Source: Anaerolineales bacterium | GTDB lineage: Bacteria > Chloroflexota > Anaerolineae > Anaerolineales > Villigracilaceae | DNA: 44,963 nucleotides | Direction: 5' to 3' | Assembly: GCA_014860805.1 (NCBI GenBank) | Contig: JACZJB010000243.1 | Location: forward strand, 1 to 44,963 | Program-made: the position numbers and the translations under genes | Shown: positions 1-10,420 of the stretch, piece by piece | Layout of the letters: each line of letters starts with the position of its first letter | Numbering within the stretch: position 1 is the stretch's first letter | The notes under the pieces: generated by a model | What the model was told of the DNA's origin: nothing | Seen by the model: the letters and a program-made list of their open reading frames with translations, nothing else | Databases searched by the model: none

Positions 1-409
1 GCACCATACCCATGCCAAAGGTCGCAGTAGTGAGCGAAAGCACCGTTCCCACAGGCCATTCGCCGCGCGCCGCAGTCACATAACTAGCCAATGGCGAGGA
101 GACAAAAGCCGTCAACCCGTAGGCAAATAGGCCAAATAAGAAAAGAGGCAGAGTCAATGCGATGCCCATGGTTAACGTGGCAAAGAGTCCCAGCAGCCAG
201 GCGCCAATCAGCAAAGGTCTGCGCCCAATCCGGTCTGCAAGGCGGCCCGCAGGGATGTGTGTGATCGCCATGAAAAAGCCGAACACGCCAAGAATCAATC
301 CGATTTCATACTTACTTAACAAAAATTGAGTATCGAGATAGATCGGCACAAAATTAAAGAACATGCCTTCGCCAAATCCCCACAGAAATAACGCGGCGGC
401 GACAAACAT
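1..409 (-). CDS. MFS transporter, N-terminal part, cut by window edge
   Basis: This is the N-terminal 136 or so residues of a major facilitator superfamily transporter; the rest lies beyond position 1. The translated frame shows hydrophobic helices and the MFS motif A (GRLADRIGRRPLLIGAW) after the second predicted membrane segment. The substrate cannot be told from this part. The ATG at 409 lies 4 nt downstream of the hydrolase stop codon, so it is probably the last visible gene of the long leftward aromatic operon. It could equally be a generic drug or sugar exporter unrelated to aromatics. The reading frame is open through to the window edge. Confidence 0.8.
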   Translation of the reverse strand, partial: MFVAAALFLWGFGEGMFFNFVPIYLDTQFLLSKYEIGLILGVFGFFMAITHIPAGRLADRIGRRPLLIGAWLLGLFATLTMGIALTLPLFLFGLFAYGLTAFVSSPLASYVTAARGEWPVGTVLSLTTATFGMGMV

Positions 410-413
410 AAGA

Positions 414-1196
414 TTACGATTCAAATTGTTTCTCCACCTTACGGATAAATTCCAAAGCCAAATCAAACACCTGCCCCCGGGCCGCGTCCCGCGTCACCAC
501 ATGGCCTGATCCAGTCACATATAGTTTTGTCTTATCTGATGCATTCACCAGCCCGGCAAAAATCTGTTCCATATTTTCAGGCAACACGTACGGGTCATCC
601 TTGGAATGGATCAACAACACAGGTTTGCGGACTTCAGGCAATGCATTTTGCATTTCATTGAGCAACAATTTCAATTGCACGGCAGAACTCAATGGATTCT
701 TTGGATAAGAGATATGAGAAGAAAAAGCATCCTTATCGAACCAGGATGCGCCAGGCATTTCTTTTGATTTTGGTGAATCCTTCACAAAAAAACTATACAG
801 TTTCATCAGCCATAGCGGATAATCTTTAGGCAAATGATACGGCGTGGAAATTCCAACGACACCCGCAACATCCAAACGCGTTGACATGAGCAAGCTTAAC
901 ACGCCGCCCATCGAAAGCCCGACAAAATAGATGCGGTCCACACTGCCGGAGAGCAGATGGAAGCCATCTTCAATGGAGGCAGTCCAATCGGTCCAGCGAG
1001 AGCGGCGCATATCTTCGGGGTTAGTTGCGTGTCCATTGAGGCGGATTCCCAAACAGGTGAGACCCTGTTTATTAAGATAATCCCCCATCCAACGCATTTC
1101 CTTGGGCGTGCCTGTAAAGCCGTGAGTTAACAGTACGCCGGTGCGGCCGCCAGGAAAAAAGAAAGGTTCGGTTGTAGGAATGATTTGATTGTTCAC
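414..1196 (-). CDS. alpha/beta hydrolase, Est30/monoacylglycerol-lipase-like carboxylesterase
   Basis: A soluble serine hydrolase of 260 residues. The oxyanion-hole segment HGFTGTP lies near residues 25-31. The nucleophile elbow GLSMGG places the catalytic serine near residue 95. An acidic residue in SKDDPY (about 200-201) and His in GSGH (about 232) complete the triad. The arrangement resembles Geobacillus Est30-type carboxylesterases, which cleave short to medium acyl esters; the natural substrate is unknown. The start is a GTG that overlaps the aroQ stop by 4 nt, indicating translational coupling. Its place at the end of an aromatic operon may be only positional, as no known shikimate step needs it. 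Confidence 0.85.
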   Translation of the reverse strand: MNNQIIPTTEPFFFPGGRTGVLLTHGFTGTPKEMRWMGDYLNKQGLTCLGIRLNGHATNPEDMRRSRWTDWTASIEDGFHLLSGSVDRIYFVGLSMGGVLSLLMSTRLDVAGVVGISTPYHLPKDYPLWLMKLYSFFVKDSPKSKEMPGASWFDKDAFSSHISYPKNPLSSAVQLKLLLNEMQNALPEVRKPVLLIHSKDDPYVLPENMEQIFAGLVNASDKTKLYVTGSGHVVTRDAARGQVFDLALEFIRKVEKQFES

Positions 1197-1645
1197 ACCT
1201 TGATTATACCCAGCGCGGATATGATATCAATAAGCCCGCGCAAACCCAGCTCATATGAATGCCAGCCAAAACCGCTGACCTTGCCCTTGCATACCGCCGA
1301 GACAAGCGACTTGTGCCGAAACTCCTCGCGCGCATACACATTCGACAAATGCACTTCGATCACAGGGATCACAATCGCTGAGATCGCATCACGTAACGAA
1401 ACCGACGTATGAGTGTATCCGCCCGGGTTGAACACCACACCATTCGCCCAAGTCCGCGCATCGTGCAGGGCGTCTATCAACGCGCCTTCATGATTCGATT
1501 GCATACAAGTTATCTCCGCGCCTAATTCTTTGCCTAACAAAACCATTTTTTCATTAATACCATCCAATGTCATCGAACCATACACTTCCGGTTCGCGTGC
1601 GCCAAGCAGATTCAAATTGGGGCCATGCAAGATTAGTATTTTCAT
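1193..1645 (-). CDS. aroQ: type II 3-dehydroquinate dehydratase
   Basis: Catalyses the third shikimate step, 3-dehydroquinate to 3-dehydroshikimate, in the cytoplasm. The 150-residue length fits the type II (dodecameric AroQ) family. The N-terminal GPNLNLLGAREPEVYG motif contains the flexible-loop Arg and catalytic Tyr, and NPGGYTHTSVSLRDAI lies in the middle. I chose the ATG at 1645 because family members begin at MKILILHGPN; an upstream in-frame start would add 18 charged residues lying in repeat-rich intergenic DNA. It is followed directly by the hydrolase (4-nt overlap) and preceded by a 119-bp gap carrying an inverted repeat. Confidence 0.95.
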   Translation of the reverse strand: MKILILHGPNLNLLGAREPEVYGSMTLDGINEKMVLLGKELGAEITCMQSNHEGALIDALHDARTWANGVVFNPGGYTHTSVSLRDAISAIVIPVIEVHLSNVYAREEFRHKSLVSAVCKGKVSGFGWHSYELGLRGLIDIISALGIIKV

Positions 1646-1664
1646 TTTCTCATCTTCTTCCTCG

Positions 1665-1722
1665 CTGAGCGGAGCGTCCTTCGACTGCGGGCTTCGCAAA
1701 AACCGCTCCGCCCTCCGCTCAG
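1665..1722. repeat. REP-like imperfect inverted repeat between aroKB and aroQ
   Basis: The gap 1646-1764 has no convincing gene. CTGAGCGGAG (1665-1674) is repeated in inverse orientation as CTCCGCTCAG (1713-1722), with GTCGAAG-type words around it. Similar words occur in the gaps at 8.5 and 14.9 kb and inside two attC sites. It may act as a REP-like element or an mRNA-stabilising hairpin within the operon; no U tract argues against a terminator. Confidence 0.55.
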
Positions 1723-1764
1723 AACGGAAAACACTCCAGGAAAGAGCGTAGTCGAAGCGCGATA

Positions 1765-3267
1765 TTATTCTATTATTACTGACTCCAAGTCACTCACATC
1801 AACCAATTCCACCCTGCCAATTTCAACAGGCAGGGCAAAGCGGATGGCTTTCGCATTCTTCTTCTTATCCACACGCATCGCTTGGATTATCTCCTCACGC
1901 GGCATTGCTTCAGGGATTTGGATGGGCAGCCCCAAGGCCTTGAACGACTCAGTCACCGCCTCCACCAACCCTTCACCTGCCAGCCCAACCCGGGCAGCAT
2001 ACTTCGCCTCAGCAACAATACCAATAGCAATTGCCTCGCCATGCCGTAGCTCAAATTTGCTCACTAATTCCACAGCATGACCAACAGTGTGGCCCAAATT
2101 CAATGCGGCACGGAATCCCTTTTCGTAGGGGTCTTCCTCGATGACTTTTATTTTGACCGCCATTGCACGCTTGACGATCTCCTCAAGATTGTTTTTTACC
2201 CAATCCATGCCGCGTGAACATAGCTCGAACAATTCAGGGTCTGAGATGATGCCATGTTTAACCACTTCCGCCATGCCAGAGATCAGTTCGCGTTCGGGCA
2301 GGGTGAGTAAAAGGCTTGGGTCCGCAAGAACCAGTTTCGGAGGATAAAAAGAGCCGATGAGGTTCTTCCCTTCAGGTAAGTCGAAACCAGTCTTACCTCC
2401 GAGCGAAGCGTCCACCATCGAAAGCAGAGTCGTCGGGATGCCGATCCAATTGATGCCGCGCATGTAGGTTGCAGCGGCAAAGCCCGCCATGTCACCGATC
2501 ACGCCGCCGCCCAGAGCAATGACCGTGCTTTTGCGGTCAAGTCCATTTTCAAGAAATGCCTTCCACAAATGTGAAATCGTTTCGAGATTTTTATGCGCCT
2601 CACCCGCAGGAATGACAACAGACTTTGAAACCTGCAAAACCGTTTGGATCTTTTCAAGATAGTGTCTCGCCACATTTTCATCGGTGACGATGATCGAGCT
2701 TGCGAAAGGCAAGGTTTTAATTTCCCCAACGCGGACATCGTACTCCCCCATCGCGGAGAGATGATGCCAGCCTAATATATCCTGAACTTGCCGAGCATTT
2801 TGCTCAGCAGTCTTTCCGTCTACGTGAATAAGCATGGAAAAAGAGTTATAGTGCTCGCCGCGTTTTGCAAGTAATGTTGAAAGTTTTTCCTGCAAGTCAC
2901 CTGTCAACAAAGGACGATTTCCAGATTCACCCTGCAGCCTTTCAAGCAAAGTAGCCAGTTCAGCCACGAGCAAAACAACTTTGCCGTTGCTCTCTACAAA
3001 AGCACGATTCTCCTGGCGCAACAAAGCGCCGCCGCCTAAAGCAACTACGCTTTCTCCTTCTGCAATAAGATCTTTCAGCGCCGCAGATTCGAGATCGCGG
3101 AAAGCAGGCTCACCCTGTTGCTCCATGATTTGTGGAATAGATATCCCCGCGTTCGTTTCGATGACACGGTCAAGATCGATGAAAGGAAGCTTCAGGTTGA
3201 GAGCAAGTTTTCTCCCAACTGTCGATTTACCCGTTCCAGGCGGGCCGTAGAGGAAGATGTGAGTCAT
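1765..3267 (-). CDS. aroKB: fused shikimate kinase / 3-dehydroquinate synthase
   Basis: A bifunctional 500-residue cytoplasmic enzyme. Residues 1 to about 165 are shikimate kinase with a Walker A GPPGTGKST at 8-16, the shikimate-binding DR segment (DLDRVIE) and GGGALLR. The rest, from about residue 175, is 3-dehydroquinate synthase with the NAD-binding GGGVIGDMAGFAAATYMRG, PTTLLSMVDASLGGKTG and the metal-ligand LNLGHTVGHAVE. The kinase phosphorylates shikimate (step 5) and the synthase cyclises DAHP (step 2), so the fused activities are not consecutive. The ATG at 3267 sits 2 nt from the aroC stop. No key motif appears missing. Confidence 0.95.
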   Translation of the reverse strand: MTHIFLYGPPGTGKSTVGRKLALNLKLPFIDLDRVIETNAGISIPQIMEQQGEPAFRDLESAALKDLIAEGESVVALGGGALLRQENRAFVESNGKVVLLVAELATLLERLQGESGNRPLLTGDLQEKLSTLLAKRGEHYNSFSMLIHVDGKTAEQNARQVQDILGWHHLSAMGEYDVRVGEIKTLPFASSIIVTDENVARHYLEKIQTVLQVSKSVVIPAGEAHKNLETISHLWKAFLENGLDRKSTVIALGGGVIGDMAGFAAATYMRGINWIGIPTTLLSMVDASLGGKTGFDLPEGKNLIGSFYPPKLVLADPSLLLTLPERELISGMAEVVKHGIISDPELFELCSRGMDWVKNNLEEIVKRAMAVKIKVIEEDPYEKGFRAALNLGHTVGHAVELVSKFELRHGEAIAIGIVAEAKYAARVGLAGEGLVEAVTESFKALGLPIQIPEAMPREEIIQAMRVDKKKNAKAIRFALPVEIGRVELVDVSDLESVIIE

Positions 3268-3269
3268 GG

Positions 3270-4439
3270 TTATTCCCAGAAGATATGCGGGATATTATCC
3301 ATCGGCAGATCATCAAGAGTTGCTTTACGCAACATCTCAAATCTTGGTTTCATTTCGTTCAATGAGTCACCGCCAATTTTTTCGAGGAGAGCATCTGCCA
3401 GCACAAAGGCAACCATCGCTTCAAGGATGGGAACCGCACGCGGCACGGGGCAGAAGTCGGAGCGTTCGTATTTGGTGGATGCATCTGCTTTTAGTGCCAG
3501 ATCAACTGTCGGCTGAGGAAGAAGCGTGGTGGCGATCGGTTTCATCGCGGCGCGGATGATGATCGGTTGTCCGTTGGATACGCCTCCCTCAGTTCCTCCA
3601 GCTCTATTCGTTGCACGTTGCAAATTGTCATGCTGCAGGTTGATTGAGTCGTGGGCTTGCGTGCCAATGCGTCTTGCATTTTCAAACGCATCGCCAACTT
3701 CCACGCCTTTGATCGCCTGCACGGACATGATAGCATGCGCGAGTTTGGCTTCGAGGCGACGGTCCCATTGCACGAAACTGCCGAGCCCAACGGGAAGATT
3801 GAGTGCAATGATCTCGAGGATGCCGCCGAGGGTGTTCTTGCCGTGAATGATCTTTTCGATCTCATCACGCATCAATTGCGCGGACTTTGGGTCTGGACAC
3901 CGCACATCGGACTCTTCTGCACGCTGAAAGCGTTCTTCGTAAGGCACATCGTTGAAGTTTGCGGTGACTTCGCCAATGGATGCAACGTAACCGCCAACAA
4001 CGATGCCAAACTGATTCAGAAAATGTTTGCAGACTGCGCCTGCAGCAACACGCATGGTGGTTTCGCGAGCGGAGGCACGTTCGAGTGCAGGACGTAAATC
4101 TTTATAGCCATATTTGACTGCACCTGTCAGGTCCGCATGACCTGGACGAGGAGCGGTCATCGGTTCCACTTCCTTGCCTTTCCATTTGACATGGTCATCG
4201 TTTTGCACAATGAGGGCGATCGGTGCGCCTGTAGTTTCACCAGCCATGACACCACCAGTGATCTGCACGGTGTCTTTTTCGATCTTCATTCGTCCGCCTG
4301 AACCGTATCCTTGTTGACGGCGGGCGAGGTCTTTGTTGATGATGTCGGGTATGAGGGGAAGCCCAGCGGGGATGCCATCGAGGATGGCAGTGAGGGAAGG
4401 TCCGTGGGATTCGCCTGCGGTGAGGAAGCGTAAGGACAT
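3270..4439 (-). CDS. aroC: chorismate synthase
   Basis: Converts 5-enolpyruvylshikimate-3-phosphate to chorismate using reduced FMN. The 389-residue product starts with the family hallmark MSLRFLTAGESHGP and carries RASARETTMR and GTEGGVSNGQPI, all family signatures. Length is normal for the monofunctional bacterial enzyme. It lies between aroE (29 bp upstream) and aroKB (2 bp downstream) in the operon, so the pathway's last common step is co-transcribed with steps 2 and 5. Confidence 0.96.
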   Translation of the reverse strand: MSLRFLTAGESHGPSLTAILDGIPAGLPLIPDIINKDLARRQQGYGSGGRMKIEKDTVQITGGVMAGETTGAPIALIVQNDDHVKWKGKEVEPMTAPRPGHADLTGAVKYGYKDLRPALERASARETTMRVAAGAVCKHFLNQFGIVVGGYVASIGEVTANFNDVPYEERFQRAEESDVRCPDPKSAQLMRDEIEKIIHGKNTLGGILEIIALNLPVGLGSFVQWDRRLEAKLAHAIMSVQAIKGVEVGDAFENARRIGTQAHDSINLQHDNLQRATNRAGGTEGGVSNGQPIIIRAAMKPIATTLLPQPTVDLALKADASTKYERSDFCPVPRAVPILEAMVAFVLADALLEKIGGDSLNEMKPRFEMLRKATLDDLPMDNIPHIFWE

Positions 4440-4468
4440 TTCAGTCTCCAGTAATCAGTAAGCAGTGA

Positions 4469-5317
4469 TCAGTTTTCAACCGCGCTCCAGAGAACATCAC
4501 GCGGAGGAGTATGTTTTGTCCAAATTTCAAAGGCAAGGGCGGCTTGTTCGATGAGCATGCCGAGCCCAGTTGTGGCTTGCAGTCCTTGTTGTTTTGCTTC
4601 TCGCACGAATTTGGTCTCGCGCGGATTATAGACGAGGTCGTAGATGATTGTACCTTGCGAAAGAATTGATCCTTTGGGGAGTGGGGATGAGTCTATGTTG
4701 GGGGTCATTCCTAAGGGAGTTGTGTTGACGGTGAGTTGAACGTTGGAAAGTTTGAAGGTTTGCAGGTCCAATTCGATGGTAGTGACACCTTCGAATTGAG
4801 AAGCAAGTTCTTCAGCCTGTTCAAGTCTGCGGGCAGCGATGGCGACGTTCCAGCCATCATTGACTAATGCATAAACCACTGCCTTTGCAGATCCACCTGC
4901 TCCTAAAACCAGAACTGACTTGTTTCTTTGTCTACTTGTTTCCCTTTCTACGAATCTCTTCAAGTCAGAAAGAAAACCTGTGGCGTCGGTGTTATCGCCG
5001 ATGAGTTTATTGCTTTTCAGGTAAATCGTATTGACTGCGCCGATGGCTTGGGCAGTTGGTGTGAGTTCGTCAATGAGTTCAATGACGTTTTGTTTGTGCG
5101 GTATGGTTACGTTGAGTCCATGGATTTCGCCAGAACGGACATGAGCAAGCAAATCCTTCAATCCTTTTTTGTCATCAGGTGCGATAGGGAACAAAGAATA
5201 GTCACCTTGTAATCCACAGGCTTTCAACGCGGCAGTGTGGATCTTGGGTGAGAGGGAGTGACCGAGGGGGTAACCGATCAATCCAAGTTTGAAAGTTGGA
5301 AGGTTGGAAGGTTGCAT
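4469..5317 (-). CDS. aroE: shikimate dehydrogenase
   Basis: NADP-dependent reduction of 3-dehydroshikimate to shikimate. In 282 residues it has the shikimate-binding SLSPKIH near residue 22, NVTIPHK with the catalytic Lys near 74, the NTDATGF segment, the nucleotide-binding VLGAGGSAKAV and NTTPLGM. The annotated ATG at 5317 has no visible Shine-Dalgarno sequence and lies 5 nt after the aroA stop, so initiation is probably coupled to aroA translation. The first dozen residues are not conserved. Confidence 0.95.
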   Translation of the reverse strand: MQPSNLPTFKLGLIGYPLGHSLSPKIHTAALKACGLQGDYSLFPIAPDDKKGLKDLLAHVRSGEIHGLNVTIPHKQNVIELIDELTPTAQAIGAVNTIYLKSNKLIGDNTDATGFLSDLKRFVERETSRQRNKSVLVLGAGGSAKAVVYALVNDGWNVAIAARRLEQAEELASQFEGVTTIELDLQTFKLSNVQLTVNTTPLGMTPNIDSSPLPKGSILSQGTIIYDLVYNPRETKFVREAKQQGLQATTGLGMLIEQAALAFEIWTKHTPPRDVLWSAVEN

Positions 5318-5322
5318 GTTGT

Positions 5323-6600
5323 TTATCGTAAAGTTTCCAGCACTTCAAAAAAGTTAGGGAACGTTTTCGAGACACAGGATGGATTCTCGATCGTGACTCC
5401 GTCAAAACGCAAACCGATCAGGGAGAACGCCATTGCCATACGGTGGTCGTTGTAGGTTTGAATGGACGCCACTCGCATCTTTTCACAGGGATAAATGGTC
5501 ATGCCATCTTCATGTTCTTCCACGCTGACGCCGAGTCGTTTGAGTTCGGTGCAGGTCGCGTTGACTCGATCGGTCTCTTTGACTCTTGCAGATGCAATAC
5601 CACGGATTCTTGTCGGTGAATCAGCAAACGGGGCAATGGCGGCGAGGGTTTGAGCAGTGTCAGGGATGTCGCGCATGTCTATGTCAATTCCAACGATGGA
5701 CGATGGACCGTGGACCGTGATTGAGCTGTCAGCTTCGCTTACACTACAGCCCATTTTTTGAAGGACATCGAGGAAGGCAATATCGCCTTGCACGGATTGG
5801 CGCGAGATGTTTTCTACTTTGACCGTCCCGCCGCAGATGGCTGGCACGGCAAAGAAGTAGGATGCGGCAGAGGCGTCGGATTCGATGGCATAGGTAGAAA
5901 GTGGCGAGTAGAAAGACGGATGAATGGTAAAGCGATTGTAGTCCTCGCGTTCGATTTCCACACCGAAGTCTTTCATGATGTTGATGGTCATGTCCACATA
6001 GGGTTTGGAGTTGAGTTCGGTTGAGAGCGTCACTGTGATGGGGCTTTGAGCATACGGGGCGACCATCAGCAAAGCGGATAAAAACTGAGATGAAATGTCC
6101 CCAGCGATTTTTGTCTTACCACCAGGCAAACCTTTTGCGAATATTTCCACAGGTGGACAGTTATTTTTGGCTTCCATTTCCACACCCAGTTGGTTGAGGG
6201 CATTCATCAAGTCACCGATAGGACGCTCTCTCATGCGTGGCTCGCCATCGAGGATGTACTCGCCATTGCCAAGAGTGAGGAAAGCAGAAAGAAATCTCGC
6301 GGCTGTCCCTGCGTTGCCGATGAAGAGTTCAGCTTTCTCGGCAGGGATCTTTCCACCGAGACCTGTGACGGTCATTTCGTGATTGGCTTCATCAAGTTGA
6401 AGGTCAAAGCCAAGCGTTTGTAGGGCTTGAGCAAAGTATTTTGAGTCGTCAGAGAAAAGAGCGTTTGTTAAACGAGTGGTTCCATTTGCGAGAGCAGCGA
6501 CCAACAAGGCACGGTTGGTCAATGACTTGGAGCCAGGCACGCGGACAGTGGTATTCAATGGATGTGGTATGGGTTCGATCTTTAATGAAGAGGATGTCAT
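5323..6600 (-). CDS. aroA: 5-enolpyruvylshikimate-3-phosphate synthase
   Basis: Transfers enolpyruvyl from PEP to shikimate 3-phosphate. The 425-residue product has VPGSKSLTNRALL near the N terminus, GNAGTAARFLSAF, DGEPRMRERPIGDL, and the C-terminal YNDHRMAMAFSLIG. These are the substrate-binding and catalytic motifs of the two inside-out alpha/beta domains. The start overlaps the tyrA stop by 4 nt. The order tyrA-aroA-aroE-aroC is a tightly packed run, consistent with one transcript. Confidence 0.96.
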   Translation of the reverse strand: MTSSSLKIEPIPHPLNTTVRVPGSKSLTNRALLVAALANGTTRLTNALFSDDSKYFAQALQTLGFDLQLDEANHEMTVTGLGGKIPAEKAELFIGNAGTAARFLSAFLTLGNGEYILDGEPRMRERPIGDLMNALNQLGVEMEAKNNCPPVEIFAKGLPGGKTKIAGDISSQFLSALLMVAPYAQSPITVTLSTELNSKPYVDMTINIMKDFGVEIEREDYNRFTIHPSFYSPLSTYAIESDASAASYFFAVPAICGGTVKVENISRQSVQGDIAFLDVLQKMGCSVSEADSSITVHGPSSIVGIDIDMRDIPDTAQTLAAIAPFADSPTRIRGIASARVKETDRVNATCTELKRLGVSVEEHEDGMTIYPCEKMRVASIQTYNDHRMAMAFSLIGLRFDGVTIENPSCVSKTFPNFFEVLETLR

Positions 6601-7472
6601 TGTGTGAGTATCTGGTATTTGGTTTGGGCGTCGTTCAAAATGGACTCGAGTTTTTCAAAATCTTCTGAAGATAAAGCAGATTCGAGTTTTGCCAATTCAT
6701 TTTGTAATCCATGCAATGCAGTCAATACATTTTCACGATTGGATTGTAAAACACCCAACATCATCGAAGATGATGTCCCTGCTACACGACTTGTGGATCT
6801 AAATCCTGTTCCAATGAATGAGGCAAAGCTATCTGGTGTGGTGAGTGCCAGCGCCGATGCAAGAACAAATGGCAAGTGACTTGTCGCTGCCAGAATGCGG
6901 TCATGTTCGGATGCATCAAGGACCGTCGCTTTTGCGCCGAGAGCTTCGATGATCTGGTTTGCAGCGGATAATGCTCGCTTGGAGGTACGCTCCAAAGGTG
7001 TGAGTAAAAACGGAGCAGCATAATACAACGTTCTTTCTGCATTCGCAAGCGAGAGTTTTTCCTTGCCGCAGATGGGATGTCCGCCGATGGGGTCGAAGCG
7101 TTCGGGCAGGCGTGACATGGAGTCAACGATCAACTTTTTCGTAGAACCCAGGTCCATGACGATGCAGGAGTTGGGCATGAGCGTTGGCAATTTCTCAAGC
7201 AGAGTCAAGATCGCGGGAACGGGAGTTGCAAGGATAATCATGTCAATGCCCTTCGACTGCGCTGACGCTCCCCTCAGGGCGGAAGTAGGATCGCTGTCAG
7301 CGTAATCGACGATGTGTTGGGACAGGGCAAGTTCGAGCGTGGGAAGATGCGGATCAATCCCATAGAGGGCGGCGCACTTGCCTTTGAGTCCCAACGCGAG
7401 CGAACCACCCATCAATCCCAATCCGATGATGGCGATCTTGGACTCTGCGAGATTAAAGTCAGGCTGTGACAT
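6597..7472 (-). CDS. tyrA: prephenate dehydrogenase (TyrA family)
   Basis: Oxidative decarboxylation of prephenate to 4-hydroxyphenylpyruvate, or the arogenate equivalent, in tyrosine synthesis. The N-terminal Rossmann motif [17 protein letters not shown] is clear, followed by DLGSTK and the active-site GGHPICGKE. At 291 residues it is the short form with no fused ACT domain or chorismate mutase; mutase activity is supplied by aroH upstream. It overlaps the end of the preceding DAHP synthase by 14 bp and the start of aroA by 4 bp. Specificity for prephenate versus arogenate cannot be settled by eye. Confidence 0.92.
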
Positions 7473-8493
7473 GTTGAGAGACGAGGCGACGATCCACCGC
7501 TTCAGCCACCGCTTTGACCTGCTTCACCATTTTGGCGAATGCTTCAGGCGTGAGCGATTGCTTGCCATCGGAGACGGCGTGCGCAGGGTCTTGATGCACT
7601 TCGACGATGACGCCATCGGCACCCGCGGCAACACCTGCTTTGGCAATGTTGGACACATATTTTGAATCGCCAGTGGAATGACTCGGGTCGATGATAACGG
7701 GAAGATGCGTAAGTTCTTTGAGAACAGGGATGGCGTTGATGTCGGTGGTGTTGCGCGTGGAGGTTTCGAAAGTGCGGATACCGCGCTCGCATAGAATGAC
7801 ACGAGTGTTGCCGCCACTGAGAATGTATTCGCTTGCCATGAGCATCTCTTCCACGGTAGCAGACATGCCACGCTTGAAAAGAACAGGGATGCGGGTTTCA
7901 CCAAGCGCACGGAGAAGATTGAAGTTCTGCATGTTGCGCGCGCCAAGTTGAAAAACATCGACGTACTTTTCCATCATCTTGATCTGCGAGACGGCCATTA
8001 CTTCTGTGACGATGGGCAGGCCCGTTTGTTCGCGAGCTTCAGCCATGTATTCAAGCCCTTCCTCACCAAGACCTTGAAATGAATAAGGTGATGTGCGCGG
8101 CTTGAACACGCCGCCGCGCAACGCATTCGCGCCCGCTTCTTTCACTGCATGTGCAATTTCCAAAATTTGTTCGCGGGATTCCACTGAACAGGGTCCAGCA
8201 ATGATCGGGATCTCGGTCCCGCCAATATGGAAACCATCGAGTTGAAAAATGGAATCGTGTTCATGGAATTGACGGGAGGCAAGTTTATACGGTTTGGAAA
8301 TGCGCTGCACTTCCATCACACCAGGCAATGCCTCGAAGATCTCTTTCGGAACGTAATGCCCGTCACCGACCGCGCCGATGATGGTTTGTTCAACGCCAAA
8401 AATGGGATGAGAAGATAAGTTCTGTTTTTCGATCTCAGCAATCACTGCGTCTATCTGCTCTTTGGGTGCACCAGGGTGCATGATGATCATCAT
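7459..8493 (-). CDS. aroF: DAHP synthase, type I-beta, copy 1
   Basis: Condenses PEP and erythrose 4-phosphate, the first committed shikimate step. The 344-residue protein has a short N-terminal ferredoxin-like (ACT-like) domain of about 90 residues, as in the Thermotoga enzyme, then the barrel with [34 protein letters not shown] and [12 protein letters not shown]. In the Thermotoga type the N-terminal domain mediates feedback by Tyr/Phe, so allosteric control is plausible. A closely similar paralog lies 128 bp upstream. The gene overlaps tyrA by 14 bp. Confidence 0.93.
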
Positions 8494-8526
8494 AATGTAT
8501 TGAGTCCTATTTGTTTATTTTTCATC

Positions 8527-8613
8527 GCTGGTTGAGTACGAAGGTATCGAAACCAGCATGTAAGCAAAACTACTTTTGTTACTGGTGGTTTCGACTGCTT
8601 GCGCTCAACCACC
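8527..8613. repeat. pair of REP-like hairpins between the two DAHP synthase genes
   Basis: Two adjacent inverted repeats fill this 128-bp gap: GCTGGTT (8527-8533) with AACCAGC (8551-8557), and GGTGGTT (8584-8590) with AACCACC (8607-8613). Both enclose TTGAG and TCGA-type words, so they look like two copies of one short palindromic repeat family. They may separate expression of the two paralogs by affecting mRNA decay. No U tract is present, so a terminator is unlikely. Confidence 0.55.
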
Positions 8614-8621
8614 GAATACTT

Positions 8622-9674
8622 CTACGCCCAACCCTGCTTGGCGTATTCGCCCTGCACAGCGGCAAGTTTGCGTCCCATCACCTGCGCGATCTGTCCGACC
8701 TGTTTGACCATCTCAGCAAACTTTTCAGGTTTCAGTGATTGCCTGCCATCCGAGACTGCTTTGGCTGGGTCGGGATGAACTTCGATAATCAATCCATCCG
8801 CGCCTGCGGCGATGCCTGCGCGGGCGATCGCGGCGACATATTCCGAGTAACCTGTGGAATGAGATGGATCAAGAATAACTGGCAAGTGAGTCAGGTTCTT
8901 CAAAACAGGAATGGCGTTGATGTCCGTTGTGTTACGTGTGGATGTTTCAAAGGTGCGGATGCCGCGCTCGCACAACATCACACGATTGTTTCCACCTGCC
9001 AAAATATACTCAGCAGACATAAGCAGTTCTTCAACAGTGGCAGAGAGTCCGCGCTTGAGCAAGACAGCGGCACGCGTCTCGCCGATGACACGAAGCAAAT
9101 TGAAGTTTTGCATGTTGCGCGCGCCCACCTGCAACACATCCACATATTTCACCATCACATCCACTTGCACCTGCGACATGATCTCAGCAACGATAGGTAA
9201 CCCCGTTTGCTCCCGCGCTTCAGCAAGAAGTTCGAGACCTTCCTCGCCAAGTCCCTGAAAGGAATAGGGTGACGTGCGCGGCTTGAAGACTCCGCCTCGT
9301 AAAGCGGATGCTCCCGCCTCTTTCACAGCCTGGGCTGTTTCTAAAATCTGCGAGCGACTCTCCACTGAACATGGTCCCGCAATGACAGCAATCTCGCCGC
9401 CACCCACTGTAAATCCATCCAATGGCAGGACAGTGTTCTCAGGGTGGAACTGCCGCGAAGCGAGTTTATACGGCTGGGTGATGCGTTGGACGATCTCTAC
9501 CCCGTCCAAGCCTTCGAAGCGTTCGGTTGGGATGCTATGCGTCTCGCCGATGGCACCGATAATCGTCGCTTCGACTCCCTGTGAGAGATGGACGTTCAAC
9601 CCCACAGACTTGACCTTCTCGATCACTGCTTCCACCTGTTGAGGGGTGGCATTGGCTTTCATAATGATCATCAT
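8622..9674 (-). CDS. aroF: DAHP synthase, type I-beta, copy 2
   Basis: Second copy of the first shikimate enzyme, 350 residues, with the same ferredoxin-like N-terminal domain and barrel motifs ([45 protein letters not shown]). It differs from copy 1 mostly in the N-terminal domain and the C-terminal tail, the places expected to change if the two enzymes answer to different end products. It is the second gene of the operon, just after aroH. Both copies start with the same MMIIM, consistent with tandem duplication. Confidence 0.93.
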
Positions 9675-9745
9675 GGTGATTCTCCTGTTTACTTTTAGTG
9701 GTTATGATACGGGCTTCGCCCTACTCGACCACCAGAGTGTTTATG

Positions 9746-10117
9746 TTATTGCGCTGCAACCAGGTCAGGTCTCAGCTTGACCGCGTCTTTCAAATACACA
9801 TGTGTGATTCCATCCTGCGGCGTTTCCGTATTCCAGTGGACGAGGACACGGATCACTCTTGGCAGACTGCCCGGCACGGGAATTTCCCTTGCGCACATCA
9901 TCGGGACAAGTCCCCAGCCCATTTGTCTGGCAGCCTGCGCGGGGAAGGTCGAAGCGAGATCCTCGGTCACGGTGAAGATGGCGCTGCCAACGTCTTCGGG
10001 ACGCATACTTTCATTTGCCTCCAAAATCGCCTCAAGTAATTCCCGCGTGGCTTCGAGAATCAGATCGGGCTTATCAGCCGATACAGTGGTTGCGCCGCGA
10101 ATCCCACGAATAGACAT
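9746..10117 (-). CDS. aroH: chorismate mutase, AroH type
   Basis: Rearranges chorismate to prephenate. The 123-residue length and motifs RGIRGATTV at the N terminus, [22 protein letters not shown], and the C-terminal [12 protein letters not shown] match the trimeric Bacillus AroH fold rather than the helical AroQ mutases. It is the first enzyme gene of the operon and lies directly downstream of the leader peptide and attenuator hairpin. A GAGGAG ribosome-binding site precedes its ATG. Confidence 0.94.
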
Positions 10118-10144
10118 ATATCATTCTCCTCGGTATTGGAACGA

Positions 10145-10184
10145 GATAATAAAAAAGAGCGAGACCGCGTGGCCTCGCTCTTTT
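10145..10184 (-). terminator. attenuator terminator in the aro operon leader
   Basis: Read on the minus strand, 10184-10171 pairs with 10166-10153 as a 14-bp stem (one G-U pair) around a 4-nt loop. It is followed at once by a run of six U residues. The stem lies 26 nt after the leader-peptide stop codon and about 35 nt before aroH, so full termination would silence the operon. A short hairpin (ACAGA/TCTGT, around 10192-10208) sits between leader stop and terminator. I could not identify a unique antiterminator partner by eye. Confidence 0.88.
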
Positions 10185-10210
10185 ACGTGAACAGATTTAT
10201 TTCTGTCTAC

Positions 10211-10288
10211 TTAAGCGCCACCAACGGCAACCGAACTTCGGAAACCGTAATAAAAGTAAAACGCAAACCAACGGGCGGACTTAAGCAT
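10211..10288 (-). CDS. aromatic-rich leader peptide of the aro operon
   Basis: A 25-codon open frame (ATG 10288, TAA 10213-10211) whose residues 7-16 read WFAFYFYYGF: one Trp, four Phe and three Tyr in ten codons. It begins about 4 nt from the predicted transcription start and is followed by the attenuator hairpin. This is the layout of classical trp, pheA and pheST leaders, where ribosome stalling at codons for a scarce aminoacyl-tRNA prevents the terminator from forming. Sensing of all three aromatic residues fits an operon that makes their common precursor. CUUAAG-U-CCGCC near its start can pair with GGUGG-CG-CUUAAG at its end, so ribosome position would change the fold. Confidence 0.85.
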   Translation of the reverse strand: MLKSARWFAFYFYYGFRSSVAVGGA

Positions 10289-10298
10289 GTTGGGCGCT

Positions 10299-10327
10299 AT
10301 TCTATGCCTGTCACGCAGATGCGTCAA
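10299..10327 (-). promoter_or_regulatory. sigma-70 promoter of the aro operon
   Basis: On the minus strand TTGACG (10327-10322) and TAGAAT (10304-10299) are separated by exactly 17 bp. The predicted transcription start, about 10292, gives only a 4-nt untranslated region before the leader-peptide ATG, which lacks a Shine-Dalgarno sequence. It would drive all genes from aroH to the MFS transporter. Confidence 0.8.
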
Positions 10328-10420
10328 GGGGCAAATCTTAAAGATAGTTTCCACAACAGTCACAGAAGACAGGGACTTTAGTAAGGTGGATTAAACCATC
10401 GATTTATTTTGTCTTGGAAG

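Follow-up and report, generated by a model that had tools for sequence, protein, structure and literature searches.

In this study, we show that the shikimate pathway genes in the analysed window (the whole stretch of 44,963 nt from an Anaerolineales bacterium) are preceded by a short open reading frame crowded with aromatic codons, an intrinsic terminator and an antiterminator excluding it, and that this arrangement is conserved among relatives. The best reading, which we consider very likely, is a ribosome-mediated transcription attenuator with a near-leaderless start, putatively sensing the charging of tRNA-Phe and tRNA-Tyr and, in this genome, also of tRNA-Trp; this reading is inferred from the sequence, without expression data.

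The leader lies on the minus strand. A sigma-70-type promoter (10327-10299) consists of the -35 box TTGACG at 10327-10322, a 17-nt spacer and the -10 box TAGAAT at 10304-10299, agreeing with the consensus at 10 of 12 letters; the chance expectation for sites this good has a mean of 1.0 in the scanned kilobase. The leader ORF of 25 codons (MLKSARWFAFYFYYGFRSSVAVGGA, 10288-10211) runs from an ATG at 10288-10286 to a TAA stop at 10213-10211, and its codons 7-16 (10270-10241) form the regulatory run WFAFYFYYGF, with 8 of 10 residues aromatic. When the 330 nt preceding the aroH match were dinucleotide-shuffled 5,000 times, a best frame with 7 aromatics arose three times and one with 8 never did. 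Four RNA segments were defined. Segment 1, the early codons (10287-10274), pairs with 10222-10208 in the ribosome-free fold. Segment 2, the end of the ORF reaching its stop codon (CCGUUGGUGGCGCUU, 10227-10213), is the 5' strand of the antiterminator, and segment 3 (10182-10165) is both the antiterminator 3' strand and the 5' arm plus loop of the terminator, segment 4 being the 3' arm. Segments 3 and 4 together make the intrinsic terminator (10184-10153), with a stem of 14 pairs (7 GC), a loop of 4 nt and a U tract after it; it lies 26 nt beyond the leader stop, and its stem end (10153) is separated by 35 nt from the aroH ATG at 10117. The leader RNA folds at -56.9 kcal/mol (z -6.2, equalled by 0 of 200 shuffles) and the antiterminator fold at -22.3 kcal/mol (z -3.8, 0 of 200 shuffles). 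The upstream neighbour, a coaBC-like gene (from 10409), is divergent from the leader, thus the terminator has no upstream gene on its own strand to serve. The first-pass annotation had described this promoter, a 25-codon frame with eight aromatics in ten and a 14-bp terminator with a U tract, all of which held, whereas its placing of the terminator directly before aroH failed because of the 35 nt between stem and start codon.

No Shine-Dalgarno sequence was seen upstream of the leader ATG in the window, and 10 nt separate the -10 box from that ATG, therefore the leader message is likely to be near-leaderless, the transcription start being inferred from sequence alone. A survey that detected leaderless genes in 4 of 12 Chloroflexi genomes recognised such genes in bacteria by a TA-rich signal some 10 bp ahead of the start (PMC3160421). 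A -10-like hexamer no more than about 15 nt from the ATG was found in 68 of 71 leaders of the order, exactly 10 nt away in 51 of them.

Conservation was examined in 101 genomes of the order, 79 of which carry chorismate mutase type I (CM_1), with 80 matches. Two matches at contig ends were left out, and two of the 77 aroH loci examined (L030, L044) had too little upstream sequence, leaving 75 scorable loci. An aromatic leader was present upstream of aroH in 71 of these, with at least 6 aromatic residues in 10 codons in 69 of the 71; none was found at threshold in four (L006, L020, L051 and L057, the last with only 179 nt upstream). Every one of the 71 leader stops was followed, at a distance of 18-34 nt, by a terminator (a first finder detected 65 of these, and a second one the 6 that it missed), and the terminator lay 24 to 140 nt from the start of the chorismate mutase match. 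Leader and terminator were also present at one additional order locus outside the 77 (G002, L388). A scan of named genomes covered 39 loci, mostly titled Chloroflexi, Anaerolineales or Anaerolineae bacterium and one Villigracilaceae, many of which probably overlap the order set; 34 of the 37 loci with at least 170 nt upstream had a leader with at least 5 aromatics in 10, and none was found by that measure at L170, L185 and the Ktedonobacter locus L188. Among the carriers is Pelolinea submarina MO-CFX1 (L184), a named strain with a complete chromosome, with the leader MNNSYRFFFSYYFYYGSSHRTPFVALKR.

In a class sample of 150 genomes, 106 had CM_1 (107 matches) and 44 had no match; two matches lacked upstream sequence, leaving 105 loci. 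A leader with at least 6 aromatics in 10 was found at 86 of these, with a terminator in 80 of the 86, and was missing at this threshold at 19, 7 of which score 5 instead of 6; in G111 and G146 the leader stands about 1 kb upstream, ahead of another gene. The same frame test was positive at 0 of 70 control loci (pheS 0 of 27 and lysC 0 of 30 in the class, trpE 0 of 13 in near relatives). These controls were the best-scoring loci in the searches and not a random draw, and left out three of 30 pheS loci (L237, L243, L244) and one of 14 trpE loci (L221), each with less than 420 nt upstream.

A covariance model built from the order leaders, R1, matched 40 of 400 phylum genomes at E <= 1e-4, 12 of them outside the class. 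Eight of these 12 were examined, belonging to three families (f92, f118, f144), and all eight had aromatic frames, with 5, 6 or 7 aromatics in 10. At the five f92 loci and at L326, the leader was followed by a recognisable chorismate mutase start; L324 and L325 were counted as aromatic leaders without an identified downstream gene. We infer that the aromatic leader system is not confined to the class and occurs in some Chloroflexota genomes outside it. Over 396 class genomes, R1 matched 135 at E <= 0.01, many of the matches being partial (about positions 77-142) and possibly plain terminators. Forty class matches, mostly the best full-length ones and not a random choice, were inspected. Chorismate mutase or DAHP synthase follows within about 3 kb in 29 of them, aspartokinase in 5 and pheS in 1; of the remainder, two run into contig ends (L140, L147) and three lack any of these neighbours (L143, L144, L149). 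At L131, L133 and L135, longer aromatic leaders of related pattern (L131: FAGVFYFFGYYFWGDLWRVLAGG) stand directly before DAHP synthase, with no chorismate mutase ahead.

The first-pass annotation had proposed that one leader senses Trp, Phe and Tyr together, and this was borne out only in part. Codons for Phe and Tyr both occur in all 71 order leaders, and Trp occurs anywhere in the peptide in 44 of the 71; among the 86 class leaders, the runs of 48 hold F and Y, and those of the other 38 have W in addition. The main type in the genus, defined by 25 codons, RW at positions 6-7 and G15, accounts for 30 of 47 genus leaders, and in these 30 codons 10-14, which were outside the selection criteria, are only TTT, TTC, TAT or TAC. 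Phe and Tyr thus interchange position by position, which is consistent with a sensor of either one, to which Trp may be added as a third input; the sensing itself, and the view of a single leader acting as an OR gate, are inferred from sequence alone.

The coupling of the helices was examined in two ways. The terminator is supported by column covariation, with double changes at 7 of 9 consensus pairs in 36 sequences. For the antiterminator, such support is weak and hardly above shuffles: 80.0% of cells are paired in the alignment columns of the order against 78.2% in shuffles (11 of 500 reach the observed value), and 4 pairs show a double change against 3.8 in shuffles (293 of 500). Sliding the antiterminator partner lowers pairing to 32-49%, and RNAalifold on the order alignment recovered only the terminator. 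Because of this weakness we added an own-versus-cross duplex test, in which a truly pairing segment is expected to pair better with its own partner than with the partner from another species. In 21 genera of the order, the test gave z -8.3 for 1:2 (0 of 20,000), z -2.9 for 2:3 (59 of 20,000) and z -10.9 for 3:4 (0 of 20,000), and the control pairings 1:3, 1:4 and 2:4 were not significant. In 74 class loci outside this first set, the three pairings gave z -5.6, -7.5 and -19.5, each with 0 of 10,000 permutations, against 830, 682 and 5858 of 10,000 for the control pairings, and after thinning to 53 dissimilar class loci the values were -4.5, -6.7 and -16.9, again each 0 of 10,000, against 2018, 586 and 5457 of 10,000. 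The pairings 1:2, 2:3 and 3:4 are thus coupled across species; the position of the 1:2 helix shifts between species, and antiterminator and terminator are mutually exclusive. Conservation of a competing antiterminator helix, which had been put forward beforehand as a check, was met by the duplex tests and is weak by alignment columns; the wider check, that relatives keep the aromatic frame, the terminator and the competing antiterminator, was run and passed, supporting the attenuator reading.

To model the switch logic, the ribosome was assumed to cover 16 nt upstream and 14 nt downstream of the A site, and an antiterminator was counted when at least 6 of the 2:3 pairs could form. In all 71 leaders the antiterminator formed at some stall codon, and a ribosome at the stop codon allowed it in none of the 71; without a ribosome it formed in 13 leaders and was absent in 58. 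Stall codons giving the antiterminator were aromatic in 462 of 954 cases, against 64 of 725 for other codons, an enrichment explained in part by the early position of both kinds of codon in the ORF. In the window, the antiterminator results from stalls at W7, F8, F10, Y11, F12 and Y13, and also at the non-aromatic codons 2-6, 9, 17 and 18; stalls at Y14, G15 and F16 gave none in this model. Across the class, the 10-codon stretch richest in aromatics has its final aromatic codon beginning 30 nt or more ahead of the stop in every one of the 86 leaders.

The proposed mechanism, in which translation, termination and the response to starvation are all inferred, would run as follows. RNA polymerase would begin the transcript a few nucleotides ahead of the AUG, and a ribosome would load on its near-leaderless end. 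With charged aromatic tRNAs at hand, it would reach the stop codon at the end of segment 2 and cover that segment, so that the 3:4 terminator would form before aroH. A shortage of Phe or Tyr (or Trp) would make the ribosome stall on the aromatic run, blocking segment 1 and leaving segment 2 free for segment 3; with 2:3 paired, no terminator would form and the shikimate genes would be transcribed. Without translation, 1:2 would compete with 2:3, and the terminator results in most modelled species. The hallmarks of a trp/phe-type attenuator are met: a short ORF rich in cognate codons, an intrinsic terminator before the first gene, an antiterminator excluding it, a 1:2 helix (with the 13 exceptions among 71) and a stop codon placed to let a ribosome that has finished mask segment 2.

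Leaders with other codons bear on this model. R1 also matched leaders with Thr/Met runs (e.g. MFEQRDSWMTTTMMTTTPKRVAVASS) and a similar segment 2 and terminator at five loci (L112, L113, L114, L123 and L125), where the gene that follows is aspartokinase by Pfam (L112, L113) and by TIGR00657 at the same place (L112, L114, L123, L125). Among aspartokinase loci of the class, 6 of 30 (L269, L270, L278, L279, L280, L282) had Thr/Met/Ile runs of at least 7 in 10 together with a terminator; L279 is the L125 locus, giving ten Thr/Met aspartokinase leader loci in all. At L130, a Phe-only leader (MNAEAQARFFSFFFFTNTHHAARAKGVVCA) with a terminator precedes pheS, at about 230-320 of the oriented stretch. 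None of 30 other class pheS loci exceeded 4 aromatics in 10 codons, and a pheS leader as a general feature of the class was rejected, L130 being the only positive. In 25 near relatives, nothing convincing was found for Thr/Ile/Met leaders before homoserine dehydrogenase (18 of 24 loci scanned) or for Trp leaders before trpE (13 of 14 loci scanned). The codons track the operon, which supports the sensing model. A bolder reading, which we offer tentatively and would narrowly bet against, is that these are old, phylum-wide cassette attenuators of Chloroflexota, with one RNA core and an exchanged codon run: Phe and Tyr (with or without Trp) before aroH or DAHP synthase, Thr and Met before aspartokinase, and Phe alone before pheS. 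The cores may share ancestry. In this reading the aromatic version would be an OR gate for shortage of Phe or Tyr, because codons for the two swap by position while both are always kept.

Downstream of the leader, nine frames on the minus strand are shikimate pathway genes, followed by a hydrolase and the start of an MFS protein, eleven in total. The first structural gene is aroH, a type I chorismate mutase (10117-9746; PF07736, E 1.8e-45), and the others, all assigned by Pfam, are two copies of DAHP synthase (9674-8622 and 8493-7459), tyrA (prephenate dehydrogenase, 7472-6597), aroA (EPSP synthase, 6600-5323), aroE (shikimate dehydrogenase, 5317-4469), aroC (chorismate synthase, 4439-3270), an aroK-aroB fusion joining shikimate kinase and 3-dehydroquinate synthase in one frame (3267-1765), and aroQ (type II dehydroquinase, 1699-1193), whose membership in the same transcript is uncertain. 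A terminator-like hairpin at 1729-1706 lies between the aroK-aroB fusion and aroQ, and a promoter-like site with 11 of 12 letters at 1230-1203 lies near the distal end of the array, both on the minus strand. A scan of 1-10130 gave 17 terminator-like and 12 promoter-like sites, and shuffles gave 11.6 and 8.3, so single sites of either kind mean little; it is possible that these two mark the distal limit of the operon. The length of the operon is inferred: the leader likely gates eight or nine genes. That it gates eleven, as claimed in the first reading, remains possible and was not shown, nine of the frames being shikimate genes and the two sites just described lying close to the end of the array. 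Both DAHP synthase genes (7459-9674, minus strand) belong to the same family and stand in tandem, and double DAHP synthase matches were also seen at some other class loci, e.g. L115 and L120.

Several rival readings were considered. In the first, a TnaC-type arrest peptide, the nascent aromatic peptide, perhaps together with a free amino acid, would stall the ribosome at a fixed place. In its favour, leaders of the genus repeatedly end in VAVGGA or a close variant. However, L008, L021 and L075 read the 3' part in another frame (e.g. APNRLPLVALK) with the RNA there kept, thus it is the RNA and not the peptide end that is conserved; the recurring VAVGGA reflects the RNA helix and therefore speaks against arrest. 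F and Y also swap position by position, and no peptide ending common to the class was seen by eye. A conserved nascent peptide at the stall site, as a TnaC-type system demands, is not met given the frame-swapped 3' halves and the lack of a common class ending, and we regard this reading as very unlikely. Equally hard to sustain is a leader that controls translation of aroH by masking its ribosome-binding site, or that works by Rho-dependent polarity, instead of intrinsic termination. Variants of this sort are mentioned in work on his attenuators and have been suggested for cys leaders (PMC9413887, PMC1262725), but a stem and U tract are present in 71 of 71 order leaders, with double changes that preserve pairing, and the distance from terminator to chorismate mutase match varies from 24 to 140 nt, so that there is no fixed link to the aroH start codon. 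A chance aromatic frame beside an ordinary terminator, for which it can be said that the promoter-like site alone is at chance level, is all but excluded by the 0 of 5,000 shuffles reaching 8 in 10 and by the 86 of 105 class loci against 0 of 70 controls. A T-box riboswitch was rejected, the window having no Rfam match at gathering and 10100-10340 giving, at E up to 5, three weak hits, none of them T-box. No covariance-model match to the Rfam amino acid operon leaders was found, the best weak hit (E 0.042) falling below the family cut-off.

The preferred reading, a transcription attenuator, shares with the trp, pheA and pheST leaders of Proteobacteria a short ORF of cognate codons, regions I-IV with mutually exclusive hairpins and a terminator before the first gene (PMC1183508); the details of the pheA and pheST leaders are general background. 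Unlike these, the Chloroflexota leader mixes Phe and Tyr codons with Trp optional, has a near-leaderless start (inferred), heads the common pathway and not one branch, belongs to another phylum and has no Rfam match. Actinobacterial trp and ilv leaders likewise have candidate leader peptides and terminators, with antiterminators for trp, but no aromatic mix was found in the relevant sections of that report (PMC1262725). Some actinobacterial leaders are leaderless. Mixed-codon leaders are familiar from ilvGMEDA (Ile, Val, Leu) and thrABC (Thr, Ile), where a single leader likewise responds to more than one product of a common pathway, though the amino acids are others. The histidine leaders of Firmicutes are also classical, outside Proteobacteria and found by comparative genomics, but carry His codons and belong to another phylum (PMC9413887, PMC2965389). 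According to a 2010 survey, which itself added Firmicutes, Proteobacteria and Actinobacteria were to its authors' knowledge the only groups in which leader-peptide systems had been demonstrated, apart from an atypical erm leader (PMC2965389). The first-pass annotation knew of no described attenuator mixing all three aromatics in Chloroflexota; we found no description of aromatic leader attenuators in Chloroflexota in the open-access literature searched, Trp being only optional here, and two works that perhaps cover more phyla (Vitreschak 2004, Lopatovskaya 2010) were outside the reach of this search. To our knowledge, Phe and Tyr specificity at the head of the common pathway has not been described before. 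The mechanism is thus classical, and its Chloroflexota setting and Phe and Tyr specificity are new as far as searched, the starvation response being inferred.

Taken at this strength, leader-peptide attenuation appears to extend across a Chloroflexota class and into some genomes outside it. Placed at the head of the shikimate pathway, the leader apparently responds to two or three end products at the same time, and it would give a means of regulating aromatic synthesis in bacteria that are familiar chiefly through metagenomes. Since Pelolinea submarina MO-CFX1 carries it, the system is directly testable. The leaders may also provide a natural series for how a codon-reading switch changes its specificity.
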